Part shown: piece by piece, positions 51,753 to 64,000 of the stretch
Numbering within the stretch: position 1 is the stretch's first letter
How the letters are laid out: each line of letters opens with the position of its first letter
Origin: Nocardia sp. BSTN01
GTDB taxonomy: Bacteria > Actinomycetota > Actinomycetes > Mycobacteriales > Mycobacteriaceae
Assembly: GCF_015354405.1 (NCBI RefSeq)
Contig: NZ_JADKYP010000010.1
Span: forward strand, 1-64,000
DNA: 64,000 bases
Reading direction: 5' to 3'
The notes under the pieces: model-generated
Seen by the model: the letters and a program-made list of their open reading frames with translations, nothing else
Database searches by the model: none
What the model was told of the DNA's origin: nothing
Translations under genes and position numbers: made by a program

Positions 51753-52541
51753 CTAACCCGAGCCCTCGAGGGCCCGGTAGAGGGCGCGAAGTTCCCGCAT
51801 ACCGGCCTCGGCGACCGATTCGTCCTCACTGGTCATCCGCAACGCCTGCCGCAGCGGAATCGGATCGAGGTCCTCGATCGCCGCGCGGAACTGCGGCGCC
51901 GGCAGGTCGGGCAGGACCACGTTCTCGCCGTAGATGTCGTCGGAGACCGTCGGGCCGCTGTCCTCCTGCACCCCGCGAATCAGCGTGTCGAGATCGAGGC
52001 CGCGCAGGGTCAGCATGATCGCCGGGGACTCGTCGAGGCGTTCGGCCACGATGTAGCACAGTGCGGCGACGTGTTTGCAGGGCCAGCCGTCGTCCGGGCA
52101 GGTGCAGGAGAAGTCGAGTTCGGCGGCGGTTTCGGGCAACAGCAGCGGGCCGAGCTCCTGCGGCAGGGCGCCGGAGGCGAGCTGGGCGAGCATGCCGGGT
52201 GTGCCGCGGACCTGATCGACCAGTTCCTCCAATCGGTCGTCGCGCAGCACCCGCAGCGTCAGCACCGAAGTGAACGGCCGCGGTTGGCTGCCCTGGACCT
52301 CGGCGGCGACCGCGCCGGGCTCGATGTGGTAGTTCACGACCTGGCCGGAGCGGGCGTAGGTGCGCCCCCGCGAGAGTCGACCGGCGTCGGCTACCTGCTC
52401 CACGGCGTCGAGGAAGGCCCGACCCCACCAGGATCGCGCGAAAGATCCCCGGCGGCTGCGAGGTTCGACGCCGCCGCGCACCGGGCGGCGCTTGCCGTAG
52501 ACGCTGAAATCGGGAACCGGATACTCGGGCGCCGGACTCAT
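51753..52541 (-). CDS. SWIM zinc-finger protein
   Basis: This 262-aa protein has a SWIM finger CxCx(n)CxH seen as DFSCTCPDDGWPCKHVAALCYIVAE. The N-terminal segment (RSWWGRAFLDAVEQVADAGRLSRGRTYARSGQVV) is typical of the partner encoded beside HelZ-type SNF2 ATPases. The ATG overlaps the SNF2 stop codon by 4 nt (ATGA), so the two proteins are probably made together and act on nucleic acid as a pair. Confidence 0.9.
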   Translation of the reverse strand: MSPAPEYPVPDFSVYGKRRPVRGGVEPRSRRGSFARSWWGRAFLDAVEQVADAGRLSRGRTYARSGQVVNYHIEPGAVAAEVQGSQPRPFTSVLTLRVLRDDRLEELVDQVRGTPGMLAQLASGALPQELGPLLLPETAAELDFSCTCPDDGWPCKHVAALCYIVAERLDESPAIMLTLRGLDLDTLIRGVQEDSGPTVSDDIYGENVVLPDLPAPQFRAAIEDLDPIPLRQALRMTSEDESVAEAGMRELRALYRALEGSG

Positions 52542-55405
52542 TCGCCCACCGCCTCGGCGCCGAGCATGAACAGGTCGCGCAATTCGTCGGTACTCAGTTC
52601 GGTGATCCAGTTCTCCCCGGTGCCGACGGTGAGATTCGCCAATTCCTGTTTGCCGGTGAGCATATCGTCGATGCGCTCCTCGATGGTGTCGACACAGACC
52701 AGTTTGCGGACCTGCACATCGCGGCGCTGACCGATGCGGAAGGCGCGGTCGGTGGCCTGGTTCTCCACCGCCGGATTCCACCAGCGATCCAGGTGCACCA
52801 CATGATTGGCGGCGGTGAGATTGAGTCCCGTACCGCCCGCCTTCAGCGACAACACCATGATCGGCGGGCCGTCGGCCTCGGCGAAGCGCTCCACCATCCC
52901 GTCGCGGCGCTTCTTGGCGACGCCGCCGTGCAGGAACGGAATCACGGTGCCGAACCGCTCGCTCAGATACGGGGTGATCAGATCACCGAATTCGCGGAAC
53001 TGGGTGAACAGCAGAGCCCGCTCCCCCTCGGCCAGGACCGATTCGAGCACATCCTCGACCAGGGCCAGCTTGCCGGAGCGGTGGCGTCCCCGCCGCAGCA
53101 GTGCCGACCCGTCGCCGAGGAAATGCGCGGGGTGGTTGCACACCTGTTTGAGCCGGGTGAGCGCGGCCAGGACCGCACCCCGGCGCGCCATGTTCACCGC
53201 GCTGGAACCGGTGGCGCGCGAGGCCTTCAGCTGCGCGAGCATATCGTCGACGACCGCTTGATACAGCGCGGCCTGTTCGACGGTGAGGTTGGCGCGCACC
53301 GTCATCTCGAACTTCTCCGGCAGATCCGAGATGACCGAGGGATCGGTTTTCACCCGGCGCAGGACGAACGGCGCGGTGACGGCGCGCAGCCGGCTGACCG
53401 CGTTCTCGTCGTGTTCGCGTTCGATCGGCACCGCGAAGCGCGCGTGAAATTCCGACGGTTTGCCCAGCACGTTCGGCGCCGCGAAATCGAGAATCGACCG
53501 CAGTTCCTCGAGCCTGTTCTCCACCGGAGTTCCCGTCAGCGCCAGCCGATGGCGGGCCGGGATCGCGCGGGCGGCGCGGGCCTGGCGGGTGGCGGCGTTC
53601 TTGATGTGCTGCGCCTCGTCGAGGACGACGCGTTCCCAGCGCTGGCGCTTCAACTCCTCCACATCGCGCGCCAGCAGCGCGTAGGTGGTCAGCACCAGAT
53701 CGGAATCGGCCACCGCCGCATCGAATTCCGCGCCGGAGCGGCGTGCCGAACCGTGATGGACCAGCACCCGTAACCCCGGGGCGAAGCGCTCGGTTTCGCG
53801 CTGCCAGTTGCCGACCACCGACATCGGGCACACCAGCAGCGTCGGCCCCGGAACGGAATCCGTTGCGGCACTCTCGTTCTCGTGCAGCAGCAAGGCGAGC
53901 ACCTGTACCGTCTTGCCGAGGCCCATATCGTCGGCCAGGATGGCGCCGCAGCCGAGACGGTTCATCGTCGCGAGCCACGACAGTCCGCGCAGCTGGTAGG
54001 GACGCAGCTGCGCCTTCAGGCCGGCGGGCGGGTCGACCGGGTCGCCGGAGTGGATACCGTCGAACAGTTCCTGGACCCAGCCGCTCGCGGTGACCTCTTC
54101 GATCGGAACCTGGCGCACCTGAGTGGCCGCGATCTCGCCGAGCAGCTGCGTCAGTGTGGCCGGACGTTCGTCGACCTTGCCCTCCAGATAGGCGGCCGCC
54201 GCGGCCAGGCTGCGCCGGTCGGCCTGCACCCAGTGGCCGCGCAACCGCACCAGATCCGATTTGGCCTGGATCAGCCGGCCCATCTCCGCCGGTGTGAGGA
54301 CCGTATCCCCCAGGGCCAGTTCCCAGCGATAGGAGACCAATCCGCTGAGTCCGACCGCGGTTTCGGTGGCGGCCGGGGACTGCACCCGCAACCGCATACT
54401 CGGCGAGACGATGCGCCATGCCCGCGGCAGCATCAGATGTACACCCGCCGAACGCAATTCGTGCGCACCGTGGGCGACCAGCTCCTGCACGACCGGTGTC
54501 GGGAGCAGGAAATCCATCCCGTACGGGTCGCGCGGTACCTGCTGCAGTCGCGGATAGGCCTGGACCGCGGCGGCTACCTTCTCCCCGGCGAGCCGGATCA
54601 ATGCCGGGTCGCCCTGGATCGGAACCGGTTGCGGCGCTTCACCTTCCGATCGGAGGCAGACTTCCAGCCGCCACAGGGCGTCGACCGCCTGCGGATCGTC
54701 GTCGGGATCGTCGTCCGGTTCGAGCAGGCGCAGGACGAGTTCCGGCTCGCCGACGGTGAGACTCGCGCGCCACTCGTCGAGCACCGAGGCCACCCGATGC
54801 GATCCCGATTCCAGCGGAACCTCCGCGACCAGCGCGGCCGTCAGCGGATGCGACGGTTCCCGGACGCTCAGCTCGAGCCGGACGAGCGGGTCGGCGAGTT
54901 CGGTGATGAAGTCCTCGAGGATCGAGGCCGCGGATCGGGCATCCGGCACCCGCAGCGCGGGCGGCATCGCGGCCGCCAGTTCGGCCAGCCAGGCCCGCTG
55001 CCGCTGCCCGCCCACCAGCCGCCACCGCACCCACCACTCGCCGTCGGCGCGATGCAGTTCGGGCACGATCCGCCCGGCACGCACCCATCGCCGCAGTCCG
55101 CGGGCCACATGGGCGAGAAAACGCAGATCCGCCGCCACCGCCGTCTCCGGCAGGGCCTGGGTGAGCACCCGCGCGGCCACCTCCGGCGCCAAGGCATGCC
55201 CGCGCACCTCGACCACTTCCGGGCCGGCTCCCGCGGGCACTAGCACCCGCACCCGATGCCGGAACCGCGCCGACCGCGCGATCGCCCCCAGCGGATCGGG
55301 CAGCTCGCCGAATGCCTCCTCCTGCGGCCGTGCCGCCGACTCGGGCAGGCGCCACAGCACCAACCCCGACCCCGGCGACCACAAACCGTGCAGCATGTCC
55401 TCCAT
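52538..55405 (-). CDS. helZ: SNF2-family DEAD-like ATPase/helicase (HelZ type)
   Basis: This 955-aa double-stranded DNA translocase has a large N-terminal helicase-associated region (about 1-440) followed by the SNF2 motor. Motif I is LADDMGLGKTVQ near 490, motif II is LDEAQHIKN, motif III LTGTPVEN. Motifs V-VI are LSLKAGGTGLNLTAANHVVHL and WWNPAVENQATDRAFRIGQ. It resembles mycobacterial HelZ (Rv2101). ATG 55405 (MEDMLHGLWSPG) is chosen; a reading through to 56539 is antisense to the HNH gene and is rejected. It is coupled to the SWIM gene. Confidence 0.93.
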   Translation of the reverse strand: MEDMLHGLWSPGSGLVLWRLPESAARPQEEAFGELPDPLGAIARSARFRHRVRVLVPAGAGPEVVEVRGHALAPEVAARVLTQALPETAVAADLRFLAHVARGLRRWVRAGRIVPELHRADGEWWVRWRLVGGQRQRAWLAELAAAMPPALRVPDARSAASILEDFITELADPLVRLELSVREPSHPLTAALVAEVPLESGSHRVASVLDEWRASLTVGEPELVLRLLEPDDDPDDDPQAVDALWRLEVCLRSEGEAPQPVPIQGDPALIRLAGEKVAAAVQAYPRLQQVPRDPYGMDFLLPTPVVQELVAHGAHELRSAGVHLMLPRAWRIVSPSMRLRVQSPAATETAVGLSGLVSYRWELALGDTVLTPAEMGRLIQAKSDLVRLRGHWVQADRRSLAAAAAYLEGKVDERPATLTQLLGEIAATQVRQVPIEEVTASGWVQELFDGIHSGDPVDPPAGLKAQLRPYQLRGLSWLATMNRLGCGAILADDMGLGKTVQVLALLLHENESAATDSVPGPTLLVCPMSVVGNWQRETERFAPGLRVLVHHGSARRSGAEFDAAVADSDLVLTTYALLARDVEELKRQRWERVVLDEAQHIKNAATRQARAARAIPARHRLALTGTPVENRLEELRSILDFAAPNVLGKPSEFHARFAVPIEREHDENAVSRLRAVTAPFVLRRVKTDPSVISDLPEKFEMTVRANLTVEQAALYQAVVDDMLAQLKASRATGSSAVNMARRGAVLAALTRLKQVCNHPAHFLGDGSALLRRGRHRSGKLALVEDVLESVLAEGERALLFTQFREFGDLITPYLSERFGTVIPFLHGGVAKKRRDGMVERFAEADGPPIMVLSLKAGGTGLNLTAANHVVHLDRWWNPAVENQATDRAFRIGQRRDVQVRKLVCVDTIEERIDDMLTGKQELANLTVGTGENWITELSTDELRDLFMLGAEAVGE

Positions 55406-55804
55406 CCAATCAGCCCCCACCGACACGCCAGGTCGCGGCCGGTGGTGGGGTGCGGACCGTGCGCGGGTCGACACAGCGGCAGCGGCGCGTGCACCCTGTT
55501 GTCGCATCCCGGCCCACGCTGCCCTGGAGGTGCCACGCCGGGCCGGGCGCTGGTTCGTGCGCCCAGGCACTCCGAGGTCTGGGGATGCAACTGTCCATGT
55601 GATCGCTACGCGGTCGAGTCGGCCGCGCCCGCCGGTTGCGGACGCCACGAAGTCGGCGGATGCCGGGATACGACCGGCGCAGGCCGGCGCGACGGAGGCG
55701 GTGACCCGGTCGCAGCGGCGCCCGATTCGGACGTATCGAACGAACGCACCCCGTGCAGGTCTTTCGGCACCGAAGTTGTCGGGCGCGGCAGGTAGATCCG
55801 AGGT
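55406..55804. other. 399-bp divergent gap between helZ and the HNH gene
   Basis: No gene, repeat or hairpin of note is supported. Open frames here are Pro/Arg/His-rich and lack start signals. The region should contain the divergent promoters of helZ and the HNH lipoprotein gene. Confidence 0.5.
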
Positions 55805-56506
55805 ATGCGGTGGGGACGGCGGGCGGGGTGGGCAGCGGTGGTGGTCGTGGTCATGGCGGTGACGGCATGCGGAATCGTCGGCGGGCCCGACCCTGCGCCG
55901 GGCAGTCCGAGCCGGGCTCGGATCGAGCAGTTGCTGGGCGCGGTGGCCGTGGTGGCGCGGCGGCCGCATCCGGGCGGGTACGACCGGGACTGCGGGGCGG
56001 GGCACGGATGTGTGTTCGGGCCGGCGTGGTCGGATGATCAGGACGGGCCGGGTGGGCACGACGGATGCGATTCGCGCAACGGCGTGCTGGCACGGCAGTT
56101 GCGCGAGGTGAGATTCCGGCCGGGTACCCGCGACTGCGTGGTGCTCGCGGGCACACTGCGAGATCCGTACACCGGCCGCTCGATCGGCTTCGACAAGGCG
56201 CGGGCCCGGGAGGTGCAGATCGACCACGTCTATCCGCTGGCCGCCGCCTGGGATATGGGGGCGGCGAGCTGGTCGCCCGAACAGCGAGTGCGCTTCGCCA
56301 ACGACATCGAATTCAACCTGCTGGCCGTCGACGGCCCGGCCAATATGGACAAAGGCGATCGCACACCCGCGGACTGGCTTCCACCCGCCGGGGCCTATCA
56401 CTGCTTCTATGCCGGAAAGTACCTCACCACGGCAGCGCAATACCGCCTGCCCATCACCGCAGCCGACCACGCCGCACTCGCCCGCATCGCCCGGCAATGC
56501 CCCTGA
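55805..56506 (+). CDS. HNH/DUF1524-type nuclease lipoprotein
   Basis: This 233-aa protein is a predicted exported lipoprotein: signal GWAAVVVVVMAVTAC ends in a lipobox (VTAC). It carries an HNH nuclease core, VQIDHVYPLAAAWDMGAASW...FANDIEFNLLAVDGPANMDKGDRTPADWLPP. The His and Asn of the beta-beta-alpha-metal motif are visible. Four cysteines lie upstream (DCGAGHGC, DGCDSRN, RDCVV). Surface nucleases may degrade extracellular DNA for nutrition; a toxin role is also possible. ATG 55805. Confidence 0.88.
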   Translation: MRWGRRAGWAAVVVVVMAVTACGIVGGPDPAPGSPSRARIEQLLGAVAVVARRPHPGGYDRDCGAGHGCVFGPAWSDDQDGPGGHDGCDSRNGVLARQLREVRFRPGTRDCVVLAGTLRDPYTGRSIGFDKARAREVQIDHVYPLAAAWDMGAASWSPEQRVRFANDIEFNLLAVDGPANMDKGDRTPADWLPPAGAYHCFYAGKYLTTAAQYRLPITAADHAALARIARQCP

Positions 56507-56600
56507 TGCGACGACCGGCGGGCCACGGCAAGCAACCACGGTCTACTGGACCGAAGTCGGCTCAGCCGCTCCTCGCGAACCGTTTGCCGAACCGGTCGAA

Positions 56601-57269
56601 TCATTCGCCCGCGTCCAGTCGCCGGAGCAGCCGCTGGGCGGCGGCACGCAGCGCGGCCGGGTCGTCGGTGACGCCGAGTACCCGCAGCGCCGCGTCGGGG
56701 ATGGCGGTTTCCGCGTAGTCGGGGGCGGTGCCCTCGTCGGAGCGGATATTGATGACCGTTTCCACCATCCGGAAGGGCAGCACATGCGCGCCGGGGACGC
56801 CGGTGGGTGCGGCCTCGATCGCCGCGGCCGCGAGTTCCTCGTAGTGGCGGCGCAACCGGGCGCGGCGGCCGCGGAAGTCGGCGAATCGGTCGCTGCGCAG
56901 TTCGGGCAGCAGATACAGGGCACCGAGATTCCACTTGGCGGCGCACAGCTGGCGCACGTCGGCGCGGGCCAGGGCGTACAGCCGGACCGCGGCCGGCTCG
57001 GGTTCGGCGCGCAAATGCTCGGCCAATTCCAATGCGCCGGTGATGGTTTCGGCGAGCAGCGCGTCCAGGATGTCGTCCTTGGCGGCGAAGTGGTGGTAGA
57101 GCGAGGCCTGCCGGATACCCACCGCATCGGCGATACCCCGCGTGGATGTGCTGCCGTAGCCGTTGGCCGTGAACAATTCCGCTGCGGCGTCGAGTATCTC
57201 GGCGCGCGGCGTCCGCCCGCGACGGCTGCGCTGATCGACGCGAGGACGGCCCGGCCCCAGGTGTGTCAC
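56601..57269 (-). CDS. TetR family regulator of the DUF1989/allophanate operon
   Basis: This 222-aa regulator runs from GTG 57269 (VTHLGPGRPRVDQ; AGGA upstream). The helix-turn-helix is AEILDAAAELFTANGYGSTSTRGIADAVGIRQASLYHHFAAKDDILDALL. It is divergent from the APC permease gene, and the shared 217-bp region has two related palindromes, one near each gene. It probably senses the nitrogen compound imported and degraded by the operon. Confidence 0.92.
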   Translation of the reverse strand: MTHLGPGRPRVDQRSRRGRTPRAEILDAAAELFTANGYGSTSTRGIADAVGIRQASLYHHFAAKDDILDALLAETITGALELAEHLRAEPEPAAVRLYALARADVRQLCAAKWNLGALYLLPELRSDRFADFRGRRARLRRHYEELAAAAIEAAPTGVPGAHVLPFRMVETVINIRSDEGTAPDYAETAIPDAALRVLGVTDDPAALRAAAQRLLRRLDAGE

Positions 57270-57347
57270 CGCCTCATCCTGCCACCGTCCCCGCCCCGCG
57301 GACCGGCACCGGGGCACGCACCGCGTCCCACCTGCGGTTGTGAAATA

Positions 57348-57366
57348 TCTGTCACTCGACAGAAAT
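57348..57366. promoter_or_regulatory. Operator-like site 1 upstream of the TetR / permease genes
   Basis: TCTGTC-ACTC-GACAGA is a perfect 6-bp inverted repeat, followed by AAT. Aligned with site 2 (57443-57461), 14 of 19 positions match. It lies 79 bp upstream of the TetR start codon and 121 bp upstream of the permease start codon. Confidence 0.65.
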
Positions 57367-57442
57367 ACCGGCAACGCAGACGTTACGCGGGTTACCGCAA
57401 GCGATACACGGCCGTCACCGAAAGCGCGATCCGGCCCGCAAA

Positions 57443-57461
57443 ACTGTCACCTGATAGATAT
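57443..57461. promoter_or_regulatory. Operator-like site 2 next to the permease gene
   Basis: ACTGTCACCTGATAGATAT shares CTGTCAC..GA.AGA.AT with site 1. It overlaps a TAGATA -10-like element (57455-57460), 26 bp upstream of the permease ATG, a position suited to repression. Confidence 0.6.
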
Positions 57462-57486
57462 TGGCCGCCACGCCGAAGGACCGCCC

Positions 57487-59010
57487 ATGGCCATCGCACT
57501 CGATCCACCCTCGCAATCCCCGACCGGCGACAGCGCCGATCTCGAACGCTTCGGATATCAGCCGGTGCTGCATCGCAAACTCGGCCGCTACGCCTCGTTC
57601 GCAGCGGGATTCTCCTTCGTCTCGATCCTCACCACCATCTTCCAATTCTTCGGATTCGGTTACGGATTCGGCGGCGGCGCGTTCTTCTGGACCTGGCCGA
57701 TCGTGTTCGCCGGTCAGTTCCTCGTCGCGCTGAATTTCGCGGAACTCGCCGCGCGCTATCCCATTTCGGGCTGCATCTACCAGTGGTCGCGCCGGCTCGC
57801 GGGTGAGGTGGTGGGCTGGTTCGCGGGCTGGATGATGATCATCGCGCAGATCGTCACGGCCGCCGCGGCCGCCATCGCGCTACAAGTGGTCCTGCCCTCG
57901 ATCTGGAGCGGGTTCCAGCTGGTCGGCACCGATACCGCTCTCACGTCCACCGACGGCGCGGCGAACGCGGTCCTGCTGGGCAGTGTGCTGCTGGTGATCA
58001 CGACGGTGATCAATGTGATCGGCATCGATCTGATGGCCCGGATCAATTCGATCGGCGTCACCGTCGAGATCGTGGGCGTGCTCGCCGTCATCGCCCTGTT
58101 CTTCACCCATACCGAACGCGGCGCCGATGTGGTCCTGCAGACCGACCAGGCGGCGCCCGGCCCGTACTGGGCGGCGTTCCTGGTCTCCGGTTTGATGGCC
58201 GCCTATGTGATGGTCGGATTCGATTCCGCCGGAGAGCTTTCCGAGGAGACGAAGAATCCACGCCGGGTCGCGCCGCGCACCATCCTGCTGGCGCTCGCCG
58301 CCTCCGCCCTCGGCGGTGGCCTGCTCCTGCTGGGCGCGTTGATGGCAGCGCCCAGCATCAGTGACGGCCACCTGGCCACCGACGGACTGGCCTACGTGAT
58401 CACCGCCAAACTCGACAGTCCGGCCGGCACCGTGCTGCTGTGCTGTGTCGCGGTGGCGATCACGGTGTGCACCTTGGCCATTCAGACCGCGGGTTCGCGA
58501 CTGATCTTCTCGATGGCCCGCGACGGCCGCCTGCCGTTCGCGTCGCGACTGGCCGCCGTGCACCCGCGCTTCGGCACCCCGGTCCTGCCCGCGGTGATCA
58601 TCGGCGTACTCGCCGTGGCGCTGCTGGTGGTGAACCTCGGCAACGCCGCGCTGTTCGCGACGCTGGCCAGCGTGTGCATCGTGACGCTGTACGTCGCGTA
58701 TCTGCTGGTCACCGTCCCGCTGCTGATCCGGCGGCTGCGCGGACTGCCCGCCGCCGAACCCGGCCTGTTCTCACTGGGCCGCTACGGCATCGCGGTGAAC
58801 GTCGCGGCGGTGGTGTGGGGCGTCGCGATGGCGGTGAATCTGGCCTGGCCGCGCGCGGAGGTGTACACGCCGGCCGGTGGCGGATGGTGGATGCTCTGGG
58901 CCGCACCGCTGTTCCTGCTCCTGACCGTCGCGGTGGGCGCGGTGGTGCACCGCATCGTCACCCCCCGCGCCGCGGCCGCGGAAGCCCGGCCCGCCCCGCA
59001 ACCCGCCTGA
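57487..59010 (+). CDS. APC-superfamily permease of the guanidine/urea-type operon
   Basis: This 507-aa amino-acid/polyamine/organocation transporter has about 12 membrane helices. The N-terminus FGYQPVLHRKLGRYASFAAGFSFVSILTTIFQ and helices such as PIVFAGQFLVALNFAELAARYPISGCIYQWS are typical of permeases linked to urea-carboxylase-associated genes. The conserved GFDSAGELSEETKNPRRVAPR loop is clear. It probably imports guanidine or a related amide. ATG 57487 follows GAAGGA. It is the first gene of the operon and diverges from tetR. Confidence 0.92.
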   Translation: MAIALDPPSQSPTGDSADLERFGYQPVLHRKLGRYASFAAGFSFVSILTTIFQFFGFGYGFGGGAFFWTWPIVFAGQFLVALNFAELAARYPISGCIYQWSRRLAGEVVGWFAGWMMIIAQIVTAAAAAIALQVVLPSIWSGFQLVGTDTALTSTDGAANAVLLGSVLLVITTVINVIGIDLMARINSIGVTVEIVGVLAVIALFFTHTERGADVVLQTDQAAPGPYWAAFLVSGLMAAYVMVGFDSAGELSEETKNPRRVAPRTILLALAASALGGGLLLLGALMAAPSISDGHLATDGLAYVITAKLDSPAGTVLLCCVAVAITVCTLAIQTAGSRLIFSMARDGRLPFASRLAAVHPRFGTPVLPAVIIGVLAVALLVVNLGNAALFATLASVCIVTLYVAYLLVTVPLLIRRLRGLPAAEPGLFSLGRYGIAVNVAAVVWGVAMAVNLAWPRAEVYTPAGGGWWMLWAAPLFLLLTVAVGAVVHRIVTPRAAAAEARPAPQPA

Positions 59011-59044
59011 GCGACATTCCCATCCGACTCTGCGAGGAGACATC

Positions 59045-59794
59045 ATGTCCGCAACCGCCTCCACCGTCGGCGCCCGCGACCACGCGCGAGCGCAAGCCGC
59101 GGCCGCGACCGTCGCCGGTCCCGACCTGCCCGAGGGCGTCGACCCCGCGAAAGTGACTTTCGCCCAACGCGTTCCGGGCAACGGGTACACCACCGCGGTA
59201 CTCGCCCGCGGCACCCGGCTCCGGCTGGCCGATCCGGACGGCGCGGCCGGCGCCCACCTGCTGCTCCTACGGGCCGAGGCGCCGTGGGAACGGTTGAACG
59301 TCGCCGACACCATCAAGGTGCCGTGGCAGGCCTATCCGGGCCCGGGCCATCCGCTGCTGTCGGATCAGGGGCGCGTGCTCGCCACGATCGTCGCCGACAC
59401 CTCCGGCCACCACGACACGCTGTGCGGACCGACACCGCGGGTACGACAGGCACTGCGGGTCGCAGGCGCGAAACACGGTCTCTCACCGCGCGATATCGGC
59501 CCGTCGGTCGCCCTGTTCCGCGGGGTGCGCGTAGGCACGGACGGCGCCCTCACCGCCACCGGCAGCGCGGGTCCGGGACGCTCGGCGGAACTGCTGATCC
59601 ACCTGCCGCTGACCGTCCTCATCGCCAACGGCACCCATCCACTCGACGACCGGCCAGCCACGGCGCTGGACGTCGTCGCCTGGCGCGGCGCCGCGAAGCC
59701 GAACGACGCCGACGCCGACCCGGAATATCGCCGGGCCGTGGAGAACACCGAACAGGCCTGGCTGGCCGCACACGATCCGGAGGCGATCGCATGA
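59045..59794 (+). CDS. DUF1989 urea-carboxylase-associated protein (carboxyguanidine deiminase subunit candidate)
   Basis: This 249-aa protein is one of a DUF1989 pair (UAAP type). The motifs are RGTRLRLADPDGAAGAHLLLL, IVADTSGHHDTLCGPTP and NGTHPLDD. Related pairs have been shown to form a carboxyguanidine deiminase that removes ammonia from carboxyguanidine, giving allophanate. It lies 34 bp after the permease gene and overlaps the next DUF1989 gene by 4 nt (ATGA), as expected for a hetero-complex. Which subunit (A or B) it is cannot be settled here. Confidence 0.88.
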   Translation: MSATASTVGARDHARAQAAAATVAGPDLPEGVDPAKVTFAQRVPGNGYTTAVLARGTRLRLADPDGAAGAHLLLLRAEAPWERLNVADTIKVPWQAYPGPGHPLLSDQGRVLATIVADTSGHHDTLCGPTPRVRQALRVAGAKHGLSPRDIGPSVALFRGVRVGTDGALTATGSAGPGRSAELLIHLPLTVLIANGTHPLDDRPATALDVVAWRGAAKPNDADADPEYRRAVENTEQAWLAAHDPEAIA

Positions 59795-60411
59795 CCACCG
59801 TTACCGAACGCACCGTCGTCCTGGACGAGACCGTGGCCGCCTGCGCACCGTGGTCGACCGTGGTCCGGGCGGGTCAGCAGTGGCAGATCATCGACCTGTA
59901 CGGCAACCAGGCGGTGGACTGCCTGCTCTATTCGGCCGCCGATCACGCCGACCGCTACAGCGCCCAGGCGACCGTCGCCGCCCAGCGCAATATCTTCCTG
60001 ACCACCGGCAGCGTGCTCCGCGCCGAATCGGGGACGGCGCTGATGACCGTGGTCGCCGACGAGGTCGGCAATCACGACACCATCGCCGGCGCGTGCTCAC
60101 AGGAATCCAACACCCTGCGTTACGGCCACCACACCCGCCATCAGCACGCCTGCGTGGAGAACTTCCTCACCGAGGCGTTGCGCTGGGGGCTGGGCAAACG
60201 CGATCTGGTCTCGAACATCAACTGGTTCATGAACGTTCCGGTCGAGGCCGACGGCACCCTCGGGATCGTCGACGGGCTCTCCGCACCGGGTAAGTCGGTG
60301 ATGCTGCGTGCCGAGATCGACACACTCGTCCTGATCTCCAACTGCCCACAGATCAACAACCCCTGCAACGGATTCGATCCGACGCCGGTACGGATGGTGG
60401 TGACACAGTGA
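59791..60411 (+). CDS. DUF1989 urea-carboxylase-associated protein, second subunit
   Basis: This 206-aa protein is the partner of the preceding gene. [59 protein letters not shown] and [14 protein letters not shown] are family signatures, and the clustered His/Cys residues suggest a metal or catalytic site. With its partner it probably acts on carboxyguanidine. Its stop overlaps the GTG of the carboxyltransferase gene by 4 nt. Confidence 0.9.
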
Positions 60412-62429
60412 CGACGGCGATCGCAATAGATACCGGCACAACGGATCTGGAGGCGAACGCCACCGGCATCGAGGTGGTGCGGGCGGGAATGCTGACCACC
60501 GTGCAGGATTGGCCGGGCCGCGTCGGCTACTGGCACGTCGGCGTCCCGCCGTCGGGACCGATGGACGATCTGTCCTTCCGGCTCGGCAATCGGGCGCTGG
60601 GCAACGACGAGGGCGCGGCCGGACTCGAATGCACCCTCGCCGGGCCCGCGCTGCGATTCCGCACCGCGACCCGGGTGTGCGTGACCGGTGCGCCCGCGAC
60701 GGTCACCCTCGACGGCGAGCGAGTGCGCCAGTGGCGCACCGTCGAGGTCCCGGCGGGCGGCACGCTGGATGTCGGCGCCGTGCAGGGACCGGGGATGCGG
60801 ACCTACGTCCTGTTCGAGGGCGGGCTCGACCTTCCCGAATACCTCGGCAGCACAGCAACTTTCACGCTCGGCAGGTTCGGCGGCGGCACCGGCGCCGCCC
60901 TTCGCGGCGGCGACCGGTTACCCCTGGGCGAGCCGACCGGCACCGTCGGGTCCGGGGTGCCGATGGCCGAGCAGCCGGTGCTGACGCGCCGATGGGAACT
61001 CGCCGTCACCGAGGGCCCGCACGGCGCGCCGGAATTCTTCACCCGCGCCGATATCGACACCATCCTCGGCACCGACTACGAGGTGCACTTCAACTCCGAT
61101 CGGACCGGGGTCCGGCTGATCGGGCCGAAACCGCACTGGGCGCGCAGCGACGGCGGCGAGGCCGGACTGCACCCCTCGAACATCCACGACACCGCCTACT
61201 CGATCGGCGCCCTGGACTTCACCGGTGATACGCCGATCCTGCTGGGTCCGGACGGCCCCAGCCTCGGCGGATTCGTCTGTCCCGTCACGGTTGTCGCCGC
61301 GGAACGCTGGAAGCTGGGGCAGCTCTGTCCCGGTGACACCGTGCGCTTCGTCCCGGTACGCGCCGACCGCGCCGCCTCGATCCGCGCCCTGGGACCGGCC
61401 CGGCGGGCCGACTGGCCGATCGTGCTGTCCGACGGCGGTGACGGCGACGACGGCATCCTGGCCCGCGCCGAAGCCGACGACACCACCACCGTCACCTATC
61501 GCCGCGCCGGTGACGACGGTGTCCTCGTCGAATACGGCGATATGACGCTGGATCTCGCATTGCGCGCCCGCGTCCACGCCCTGCACCGGCATCTGCTCGA
61601 ACACGCCGAGCCGGCGATCACCGAACTGACACCCGGAATCCGTTCGCTCCAGGTGCGTTTCGATCCGGACCGGCTGGCCACGCCGAAACTGTTGCGACTG
61701 CTGCGCGAGGCCGAATCCGCCCTGCCCCCGGCCGCGGAACTGGTGGTGCCGAGCCGCACCGTGCACCTGCCGCTGTCGTGGGACGATCCGGCCACGCGCG
61801 AGGCCATCATCCGCTATATGCACGGCGTGCGGGCGGATGCGCCGTGGTGCCCCTGGAATATCGAGTTCATTCGCCGGATGAACGGATTGTCCACGGTGGC
61901 AGATGTTTTCGATACGGTCTTCGCCGCCGAATACCTCGTGCTCGGCCTCGGCGACGTGTACCTCGGCGCACCGGTCGCCACCCCCACCGATCCGCGCCAC
62001 CGCCTGGTCACCACCAAATACAATCCGGCCCGCACCTGGACGCCGGAGAACGCGGTCGGCATCGGCGGCGCCTATCTGTGCATCTACGGCATGGAGGGGC
62101 CCGGCGGATATCAATTCGTCGGCCGTACCACACAGGTGTGGGACCACCGCTGCACCGGCGACGCCGAGGATCCCTGGCTGCTGCGGTATTTCGATCGCAT
62201 CCGCTGGTATCCGGTGTCCGCGGAGGAACTGCTGGACCTGCGGGCCGACGTCGCCCGCGGCCGCGGCGCACTGCGCGCGGAGGAGGGCGAATTCCGGCTC
62301 GCCGAATATCGCGATTTCCTGTCCGCCAACGCCGAATCCATCGCCGACTTCCGCACCGTGCAGGCGGCAGCGTTTGCCGCCGAGCGGGATTCGTGGCGGG
62401 CGGCGGGCGAATTGCACGAACGAGGATGA
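60408..62429 (+). CDS. Carboxyltransferase part of a urea/guanidine carboxylase, lacking BC and BCCP domains
   Basis: This 673-aa protein corresponds to the middle of a full urea/guanidine carboxylase (about 1,200 aa). It starts at once with the AHS2/KipA-like half ([69 protein letters not shown]). The AHS1/KipI-like half follows ([36 protein letters not shown]). A C-terminal segment [21 protein letters not shown] and [28 protein letters not shown] is as in UCA. It has no ATP-grasp biotin carboxylase and no biotin-attachment motif, so partner subunits must be elsewhere, likely beyond 64,000. Confidence 0.9.
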
Positions 62430-62439
62430 GGGGCCCGAC

Positions 62440-64000
62440 ATGAGCATCTGGATTCATCGATCCGAAGACCCGGGTCCGCACGGCACCGGCCCGCTGGCGG
62501 GTCTGCGGGTGGCCGTCAAGGACAACGTCGATGTCGCCGGCCTGCCGACGACCGCCGGCTGCCCGGACTACTCCTTTCTGCCCGACCGCGACGCGCCCGC
62601 GGTCGCGGCCCTGCGCGCCGCGGGTGCGGTGGTCATCGGCAAGACGAATATGGATCAGTTCGCGACCGGCCTGGTCGGCACCCGCTCGCCCTACGGTCCC
62701 GTCCCGGACTCGCGGCGTCCCGCATTCATCTCCGGCGGTTCGAGTTCCGGTTCGGCCGTGGCCGTCGCGACCGGCGCGGCCGATATCGCGATCGGCACCG
62801 ATACCGCGGGGTCCGGGCGTGTTCCGGCGGCGCTGCAGGGCATCGTCGGCATCAAACCGACCGTGGGAGTCGTCTCCACCGCGGGGGTCGTCCCGGCCTG
62901 CCGTTCCTATGATTGCGTGACGATCTTCGCCGCCGACCCGGCACGCGCCGATCAAGCGATGGGGGTGATGGCCGCCGGTGCGCCCGGTCGCGCGTGGCCC
63001 GCCGATACCCGGCTGGCGGCTCCGCCACGCCCGACCGTCGCGATCTTCGCCGACCTGCCGGAACTGGATCCGGTGTGGCGGGCGGCATTCGACCGGACCG
63101 TCACCGCACTCCGGCAGCGCGGGGCGACCATCGTGGAGATCGACCCGGCGCCGTTCCTGGCAGCGGCCCGGCTGCTCTACGACGGGGCGCTGGTCGCCGA
63201 AAGGTACGCCGCGGTGGGCGAATTCATCGAGACACGACCGGATGCGGTCGATCCGGCCGTCGCGAGCATCATCCGCGCCGCGCGCGATATTCCGGCGCAT
63301 CGGCTGGTCGCCGACCGCGCCGAACTCGAGCGCTTACGCACGCTCGCGATGGACAGCCTGGGCGACGCCGACGCGCTGCTCGCGCCGACCGCCCCGATGC
63401 ATCCGACCATCGCGCAGGTCGAGGCGGATCCGATCGGGGTGAACTCCCGCATGGGCACCTACACCAATTTCTGCAATCTGTTCGATCTGTGCGCCGTGGC
63501 CGTGCCCGCCGGGATGGCGGGCGAATCCTGTTTCGGCGTCACGGTTTTCGCGCGTCCGTTCGAGGATGCGGTGGCCTCGGATATCGCCGTCTCGATCACC
63601 GGCGATGCGGAGATCACGCGGCCGTGGCCACTGGCGGTCGCGCCGGTGTGCGAGCTGATCGTGTTCGGGGCGCATCTGCGCGGCCAGCCGTTGGAACACC
63701 AGTTGCATGCGCTCGGCGCCCGCTGGGCCGGTCCGGTCCGCACGGCCGCGGCCTATCGCCTCGCCGCCCTCGACACCACGCCGCCGAAGCCCGCGGTGAC
63801 CCGCTGCGAGGGTGGTGTGTCGGTGGCGGGTGAACGCTGGTTGCTCTCCCCCGCCGCCCTCGGCCGCTTCCTCGCCGCACTGCCGGCGCCGATGCAGCTG
63901 GGTGCCGTCGAACTCGACGACGGCACCTGGCACACCGCGTTCGGATGTGACGGGACCGCCGCCGCCGAAGCCAAGGACATCAGTGAATACGGTGACTGGC
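62440..64000 (+). CDS. atzF: Allophanate hydrolase, cut by the right edge (only a few codons missing)
   Basis: This amidase-signature enzyme cleaves allophanate to ammonia and CO2. From ATG 62440, 520 codons are visible. The Ser-cisSer-Lys triad residues lie in LRVAVKDNVDVAG, SGGSSSGSAVAVATG and GTDTAGSGRVPA. A C-terminal allophanate-specific domain follows. The last codons, AAEAKDISEYGDW, resemble the family's terminal segment, so the stop should be close. It lies 10 bp after the carboxyltransferase gene and completes the nitrogen-release pathway. Confidence 0.94.
   Translation, partial: MSIWIHRSEDPGPHGTGPLAGLRVAVKDNVDVAGLPTTAGCPDYSFLPDRDAPAVAALRAAGAVVIGKTNMDQFATGLVGTRSPYGPVPDSRRPAFISGGSSSGSAVAVATGAADIAIGTDTAGSGRVPAALQGIVGIKPTVGVVSTAGVVPACRSYDCVTIFAADPARADQAMGVMAAGAPGRAWPADTRLAAPPRPTVAIFADLPELDPVWRAAFDRTVTALRQRGATIVEIDPAPFLAAARLLYDGALVAERYAAVGEFIETRPDAVDPAVASIIRAARDIPAHRLVADRAELERLRTLAMDSLGDADALLAPTAPMHPTIAQVEADPIGVNSRMGTYTNFCNLFDLCAVAVPAGMAGESCFGVTVFARPFEDAVASDIAVSITGDAEITRPWPLAVAPVCELIVFGAHLRGQPLEHQLHALGARWAGPVRTAAAYRLAALDTTPPKPAVTRCEGGVSVAGERWLLSPAALGRFLAALPAPMQLGAVELDDGTWHTAFGCDGTAAAEAKDISEYGDW

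Follow-up and report, generated by a model that had tools for sequence, protein, structure and literature searches.

A probable guanidine carboxylase subunit in Nocardia that is carboxyltransferase-only, with AccA3 as the likely source of its biotin half

The 64,000-nucleotide stretch of the Nocardia sp. BSTN01 genome analyzed here (the window; C2:1-64000 in contig coordinates, in which G000 is the window's own genome) carries near its right end a gene for the carboxyltransferase (CT) part of a urea or guanidine carboxylase, detached from the biotin carboxylase (BC) and biotin carrier (BCCP) parts. We propose that its product is the CT subunit of a guanidine carboxylase derived from a one-chain ancestor, and that it probably works in trans, with AccA3, the BC-BCCP subunit of acyl-CoA carboxylases, as the most likely partner. 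The proposal builds on what is observed: two domains have been lost, and this loss is conserved; the gene sits in an operon with pathway genes and keeps the residues for specificity and catalysis; no partner gene lies near it, and the genome encodes AccA3.

60408..62429, + strand: CT-only protein of guanidine carboxylase type, lacking the BC and BCCP domains, 673 aa, from domain and profile matches, Asp270 and Asp516

Pfam assigned CT_A_B (residues 44-316) and CT_C_D (363-581) to this protein and nothing further at E <= 0.001. Against TIGR02712 (urea carboxylase, 1201 positions) it covers model positions 441-1112 only, with a score of 979.9 bits that lies under the curated cut-off of 1303.85. 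The BC domain (positions 1-440) is not in the chain, the alignment beginning at 441, and neither is the BCCP with its biotin lysine (about 1130-1201), as the match ends at 1112-1115 and the chain at residue 673. These matches agree with the original prediction, made from the letters alone, that 60408-62429 encodes a CT half without biotin attachment; its statement that the window holds no BC is likewise borne out, neither TIGR02712 nor PF02786 giving a BC match on C2:1-64000. The GTG start of the CT gene overlaps the stop codon of the upstream gene UAAP2 (GTGA; UAAP2 stop at 60409-60411), and the ATG of the downstream atzF, at 62440, lies 10 bases beyond the CT stop. This 4-bp overlap on one side and the short gap on the other leave no room for the lost parts. 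An AlphaFold2 model (20 sequences; mean pLDDT 74.7, pTM 0.78) confirmed the fold and nothing beyond it.

Two relatives of the protein provide a basis for comparison. It is alike over the whole CT domain to the single-chain guanidine/urea carboxylases (K. lactis, 3VA7 and 5I8I; bacterial Gca), with 42% identity to the K. lactis enzyme (Foldseek), and it shares with the single-chain guanidine carboxylase Asp1584, the guanidine-type Asp1330 and, in bacteria, the operon partners. It differs in that BC and BCCP are missing from both chain and locus. The CT_C_D and CT_A_B folds are also common to PxpB/PxpC and to M. smegmatis MSMEG_0435/0436 (3MML, 9YX5), but the latter are two chains with 32% identity or less to the window CT (Foldseek). 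The possibility, raised with the prediction, that the protein is a 5-oxoprolinase-type enzyme finds no support in the corresponding models, which stay far under their cut-offs (NF045499, 119.7 of 500; TIGR00370, 37.1 of 145.55), and the genome has a separate PxpBC-like pair, 36-37% identical, at C163.

The residues retained by the CT provide an opportunity to evaluate its substrate. Asp at K. lactis position 1584 is required, and Asp at 1330 marks guanidine rather than urea (PMC11410670), the criterion of Asp and not Asn at the latter position being found also in PMC12186494. With equivalences counted by hand on an alignment with 5i8i, Asp516 (GLGDVYLG) corresponds to 1584 and Asp270 (GALDFTGD) to 1330, such that both the catalytic and the guanidine-type Asp are kept. 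We then surveyed 43 CT rows of all kinds, leaving out L083 as the same gene as L046. Asp1330 is present in the window's own row, in 22/22 congener CT-only rows and in 5/5 same-family CT-only rows (28/28 together), as well as in six full-length rows of other families, whereas 5/5 full-length rows of the genus have the urea-type Asn. Given this division, congeners that possess both forms (for example G003, in which both were read) combine a urea-type full-length enzyme with a guanidine-type CT-only protein. The divergent CT-only rows L069, L080, L081 and L082 have Met, Ala, Ile and Ile at 1330, respectively, and Asp1584 occurs in 42 of the 43 rows, with Glu in L080. As judged from these positions, the substrate of the window CT is likely to be guanidine rather than urea.

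The adjoining genes are consistent with this assignment:

57448..59010, + strand: APC-type permease of the urea/guanidine carboxylase system (TIGR03428, 824 bits, cut-off 740; start codon provisional)
59045..59794, + strand: UAAP1, DUF1989 protein, one subunit, carboxyguanidine deiminase type (TIGR03425, 210.6 bits, cut-off 205.95)
59785..60411, + strand: UAAP2, DUF1989 protein, the other subunit (TIGR03424, 332.2 bits, cut-off 284.7; start codon provisional)
62440..64032, + strand, ending 32 bases past the window: atzF, allophanate hydrolase (TIGR02713, 604.5 bits, cut-off 511.05)

The guanidine pathway genes next to the CT, namely the DUF1989 pair and the allophanate hydrolase, all score above curated cut-offs, and the pair has been read as a two-subunit carboxyguanidine deiminase (PMC11410670). 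Without the formation of carboxyguanidine the deiminase pair and AtzF would have no sensible role, and the residues for this step are retained in the CT; the missing parts should come in trans.

The CT-only arrangement is not confined to one genome. A hand count on the match listing for 119 genomes of the genus, including the window's own, gave a match in 111 and a near-full-length CT of the window's kind in 102 (76-100% identity); the remainder comprise two broken-looking copies (G014, G505), seven genomes with full-length-level matches only (the row of G472 was not listed) and eight with none. The same kind of CT in 102 of 119 genomes leaves no part for chance. Flanks were scanned in 22 of these congeners besides the window's own genome, the other 79 being classed by identity alone. 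The scans reached up to about 10 kb per side and less at contig ends (1.6 kb upstream for L059), using BLAST at E <= 1e-4 and leaving out matches of <50 residues, except for the BCCP query of the first congener scan. A BC or BCCP match was found in the scanned flanks of 0/22 congeners, and UAAP1 and UAAP2 in those of 22/22. An adjoining atzF is present in 7 of the first 18 congener loci; AH_C, the end domain of allophanate hydrolase, occurs in 37 of 38 genomes searched, including CT-only genomes that have no adjacent atzF (it is weak in G022 and G480, and none was found in G141).

Similar results were obtained beyond the genus. Among the best 80 of 554 named loci, 78 are CT-only, and BLAST scans on the same terms over flanks of up to 6 kb gave neither a BC nor a BCCP match for them. 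This figure is not a frequency, as the loci are ranked by likeness to a CT-only query; at L168 only 21 bases of left flank are available, and an upstream BC may lie beyond them. The 78 loci belong to Nocardia, Rhodococcus, Rhodococcoides, Prescottella, Mycobacterium/Mycolicibacterium, Gordonia, Williamsia, Tsukamurella, Skermania, Antrihabitans and one Kitasatospora record, and the other two, from Pseudarthrobacter and Arthrobacter, are full-length. The closest CTs within these 80 are those of Nocardia aobensis (95% identity), N. nova (94%) and N. elegans (93%), which suggests a place for the window near the N. nova group. In even draws, a CT match was obtained for 16/396 genomes of the phylum (E <= 1e-80) and 63/298 of the order; full-length enzymes occur commonly in the order's other families as well as in genomes the size of those of Streptomyces.

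The phylogeny indicates how the split arose. In the main tree of 58 rows (L077, L163, L071, L131, L160, L048, L194, L196 and L066 left out by thinning, L200 as partial and L201 as a broken copy), 30 CT-only rows form one clade (SH-aLRT 100) nested among full-length Asp-type rows from Arthrobacter, from G699 and G789 of the same family, from family f16 and from Streptomyces-sized genomes. Given this nesting, the ancestor was a single chain that later lost BC and BCCP. A second CT-only group of 12 rows (SH-aLRT 96), drawn from five families of the order and from family f56 outside it, has Met or Ile at 1330, although its unity is unsure because long branches meet there. The rows of this group read over the full CT have UAAP2 and AtzF adjacent and, in BLAST scans on the terms given above, no BC or BCCP match. 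The state changes forced by the starred branches number at least two in the 58-row tree and one only in the first, smaller tree (24 of 44 CT rows and 25 of the best 80 named loci); the biotin half was apparently lost at least twice in Actinomycetota. The second group comprises L069 and L189-L199 (G026, G558, G735, G537, G601, G634, G565, G557, G633, G675, G643 and G528) together with L081 and L082, and has the DUF1989 pair or at least UAAP2, plus atzF; from its residues, it perhaps acts on a substrate other than guanidine or urea.

Purifying selection acts on the window CT: dN/dS is 0.12 against both N. nova and N. elegans, 0.15 against both N. mexicana and G020, and 0.18 against G002, a range of 0.12-0.18 over five pairs. 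A single column is fixed differently between first-group CT-only and Asp-type full-length rows (Ala to Asp at 231). Some rows depart from the general pattern. L184 and L185 (G699 and G789, of genus g18, in which the other rows read are CT-only) are full-length, Asp-type and group with family f16, reflecting either a retained ancestor or transfer. L104, a CT-only locus from the Kitasatospora arboriphila record (Streptomycetaceae), groups with Williamsia (SH-aLRT 99), through either horizontal transfer or a mislabelled assembly. L080:9379-11367 (G141, 94% complete) encodes a CT-like protein in which Glu replaces the catalytic Asp and position 1330 is Ala; its genome has no detectable BC, BCCP or allophanate hydrolase, no DUF1989 match lies near the locus, and the protein probably has another function.

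We searched for the missing half in the genome to which the window belongs, an assembly of 7.79 Mb in 206 contigs that is 99.65% complete. TIGR02712 placed BC at seven strong places, all outside the window, and revealed no chain spanning both parts; a full-length urea/guanidine carboxylase elsewhere in the genome, which had been named as the finding that would overturn a split enzyme, was thus looked for and not found. The prediction of a split urea/guanidine carboxylase stands as regards the split, with guanidine the likelier substrate, but its first suggestion for the biotin half, a BC-BCCP gene downstream of atzF, does not: there is none in the next 12 kb, or in the scanned flanks of the 22 congeners and the 78 CT-only named loci. 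By their translations, the 12 kb past the window (to C2:76000) hold an opposite-strand sulfurtransferase gene, a permease, a regulator and a branched-chain dehydrogenase cluster, and no BC. The only BCCP-part match there is weak (E 1.4e-4, C2:69169-69345), and we read it as a lipoyl domain because it lies in a dehydrogenase E2 protein. The strong BC matches include one on the window's own contig:

C2:104,357-106,159, - strand: AccA3-like BC chain, 600 aa, a BC-BCCP alpha subunit, 40 kb past the window and with an AccD-type gene a few genes away

The top PDB match of this chain is mycobacterial AccA3. Further BC chains occur at C204, C200, C134, C88 and C110, with a lone BC at C124:

G000:C124:1251-5771: lone BC (L022), beside a fused AccD/AccA-type gene and a ketosynthase

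The C124 protein probably supplies extender units in a polyketide cluster. It was rejected as a dedicated partner given its polyketide-looking surroundings, and a BC frame of that size is not listed for G523, G077 or G397.

Recruitment of BC-BCCP from an acyl-CoA carboxylase, which was the second guess of the original prediction, is the reading that we favour, and under it we infer that the CT is an active carboxylase with guanidine as substrate and AccA3 as partner. The ancestor would have been a single BC-CT-BCCP chain, from which the lineage of Nocardia, Rhodococcus, Mycolicibacterium and kin would have dropped BC and BCCP while selection retained the CT. A biotinylated BC-BCCP subunit, most likely AccA3, would carboxylate its own biotin using ATP and bicarbonate and present the carboxybiotin to the CT in trans. 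Guanidine would then be carboxylated by the CT and the product, carboxyguanidine, deiminated by the DUF1989 pair; AtzF would hydrolyse the allophanate so formed to ammonia and CO2. Guanidine carboxylase has been described as a biotin-containing enzyme (PMC11410670).

Several observations are consistent with AccA3 in this role. No CT-only locus with scanned flanks has a BC or BCCP gene beside the CT, and the BC complement of CT-only genomes looks ordinary, its members resembling acyl-CoA and pyruvate carboxylases of the usual kinds. Only two BC genes were found in G417, a genome 97% complete; they encode a 598-aa BC-BCCP and a pyruvate-carboxylase-sized chain. An AccA3-sized BC frame (601-677 aa) is present in 19/19 CT-only genomes of the order surveyed, and in the four of these checked by sequence besides the window's own it is AccA3, with identities of 91% (G023), 89% (G523), 80% (G077) and 67% (G026). 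AccA3 is an alpha subunit common to several mycobacterial carboxylases (PMC11001197, PMC4347857), the AccA3-AccD enzymes using one BC-BCCP subunit for several CT subunits. According to its title and chain names, PDB 9yx5 is an M. smegmatis long-chain acyl-CoA carboxylase with an AccA3 chain and the CT-like MSMEG_0435-MSMEG_0436 bound, which may serve, for a related pair only, as precedent that two proteins of KipI/KipA type can associate with a complex containing AccA3. The same entry hints at a wider habit of KipI/KipA-type proteins docking on that complex. We give even odds to the broader reading that a single essential biotin subunit, AccA3, supplies CTs whose folds are unrelated, namely the AccD subunits of fatty-acid and mycolate synthesis and a guanidine CT of KipA/KipI type, the latter having lost its biotin half because the shared one sufficed.

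Other observations count against this assignment. AccA3 normally meets CT subunits of quite different fold: those of AccD type act on acyl-CoA substrates and are crotonase-like, unlike the KipA/KipI-type window CT. AccA3-sized frames occur also in congeners that have no CT-only gene (G022, G018), so that presence is not distinguishing. Free-standing BCCP is found in 14 of 15 CT-only genomes tested. The title and chain names of 9yx5 give neither the role of MSMEG_0435/0436 nor the part of AccA3 that they touch. Eleven full-length CTs share 228 invariant columns, of which 184 are retained in all 34 first-group CT-only rows, but this has little power to discriminate, since individual divergent rows retain between 188 and 208 of them, including L080, which has no catalytic Asp and retains 188. 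Finally, the literature searched reports no activity, interaction or guanidine growth for a CT-only member.

The main rival to AccA3 is the free-standing BCCP, which could be charged by the BC of AccA3 or of another chain and serve as the detached BCCP of the CT, a scheme that we consider unlikely:

G000:C196:146,238-146,504 (= L023:8239-8505), - strand: free-standing BCCP, 88 aa, between histidine kinase and oxidoreductase genes

From its neighbours, we take this protein to resemble M. tuberculosis TB7.3/Rv3221c, and we know of no carboxyltransferase partner for a free-standing BCCP. The frames (75-163 aa) extend to CT-only genomes of other families (G026, G159, G417), and the sole CT-only genome tested that has no BCCP match whatever is G141, whose CT-like protein has no catalytic Asp. 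None was found in six full-length-only genomes outside the family (G034, G062, G199, G166, G220, G328); the biotin motif was read in G000, G361, G026, G159 and G417, and TB7.3 is described as a putative ACC BCCP subunit (PMC3048393). However, free BCCP also occurs in relatives that have no CT-only gene (G022, G018, G112, G188), and in 14/15 same-family genomes, seven of those having no CT-only gene, such that the pattern may be plain ancestry. It never adjoins the CT in any locus scanned. Free-standing BCCP is widespread in the phylum, and its presence in many genomes that have no CT led us to reject it as a dedicated partner while retaining it as a rival.

An improbable alternative is that the CT no longer depends on biotin, and instead acts in an ATP-dependent manner like the 5-oxoprolinase PxpABC or simply binds guanidine. 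PxpB and PxpC are KipA/KipI-type proteins that function without biotin partners and thus offer a precedent, as may the CT-like protein of G141, with its Asp-to-Glu change and a genome in which no BC is detectable. By comparison, both marker Asp residues are kept in the window's own, 22 congener and five family-mate rows, and the upstream deiminase pair needs carboxyguanidine. Marginally less probable again is a partnership with another BC-BCCP chain of the genome, either C204 or C200, which from their neighbours are probably of the methylcrotonyl-CoA carboxylase type, or pyruvate carboxylase. C204 and C200 each have BC and BCCP matches within one frame, and G523, G077 and G397, each with a set of four BC genes, also have frames of 678-871 aa; yet the C204 and C200 chains adjoin an acyl-CoA CT gene or other catabolic genes, and G417 yielded just a single short BC-BCCP chain besides the chain of pyruvate carboxylase size. 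Decay of the CT gene into a relic, or an artefact of assembly, is very improbable as an explanation: despite the broken-looking copies in G014 (two pieces) and G505 (a stop), the architecture is constant over many independent assemblies and genera, with the low dN/dS values given above.

The favoured reading, with AccA3 as partner of the CT, bears on a system already described. The operon of the window very probably corresponds, by gene order, to the AmtR/GlnR-controlled 'urea carboxylase' operon (M. smegmatis msmeg_2184-2189, N. farcinica nfa22220-22180; PMC4222082), which comprises a permease, two unknown frames, a carboxylase, an amidase and a TetR gene. That paper draws on ten actinobacterial genomes, including that of N. 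farcinica, to describe the AmtR regulon, and treats the operon as serving urea use; in the parts available it calls the exact gene functions 'highly speculative' and does not remark on missing BC and BCCP. It also reports no effect of urea or amino acids on AmtR binding and no effector found in M. smegmatis, which, in what is termed a puzzling result, fails to grow on urea. A guanidine role would fit these results better than a urea role. The gene msmeg_2187 has been named urea amidolyase (PMC4617892, PMC3662644); given the Mycolicibacterium relatives among the named loci, its product is presumably CT-only. A guanidine carboxylase that is split or CT-only was not met in the literature searched, but the search was incomplete and we do not claim the form as unreported.

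The probable regulator of the operon is encoded on the other side of the permease gene:

56601..57374, - strand: TetR-family regulator, probably AmtR, divergent from the operon (Pfam TetR_N; no curated cut-off passed among the models listed)

Copies >60% identical lie beside the operon in 17/18 congener loci, and in Table 3 of PMC4222082 the N. farcinica amtR (nfa22230) is numbered next to the permease and urea carboxylase genes; on this basis the window's regulator is probably AmtR. A guanidine riboswitch, frequent though not obligatory in operons of the pathway, gave no Rfam match at gathering score in 52000-64000. Given that no riboswitch was detected at the locus, guanidine or a pathway intermediate is a candidate ligand of AmtR.

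A CT-only form that is fixed across Nocardia and found in other genera would change annotation, as the full TIGR02712 model fails its cut-off here. It could also explain the failure of M. smegmatis to grow on urea although it induces a supposed urea operon (PMC4222082), and guanidine, rather than urea, is proposed as a candidate AmtR ligand. Moreover, the reading predicts that the scavenging of nitrogen is directly linked to the machinery of acyl-CoA carboxylation: if it is true, Nocardia, Rhodococcus and mycobacteria would draw, in obtaining nitrogen from guanidine, on the carboxybiotin pool of lipid synthesis.

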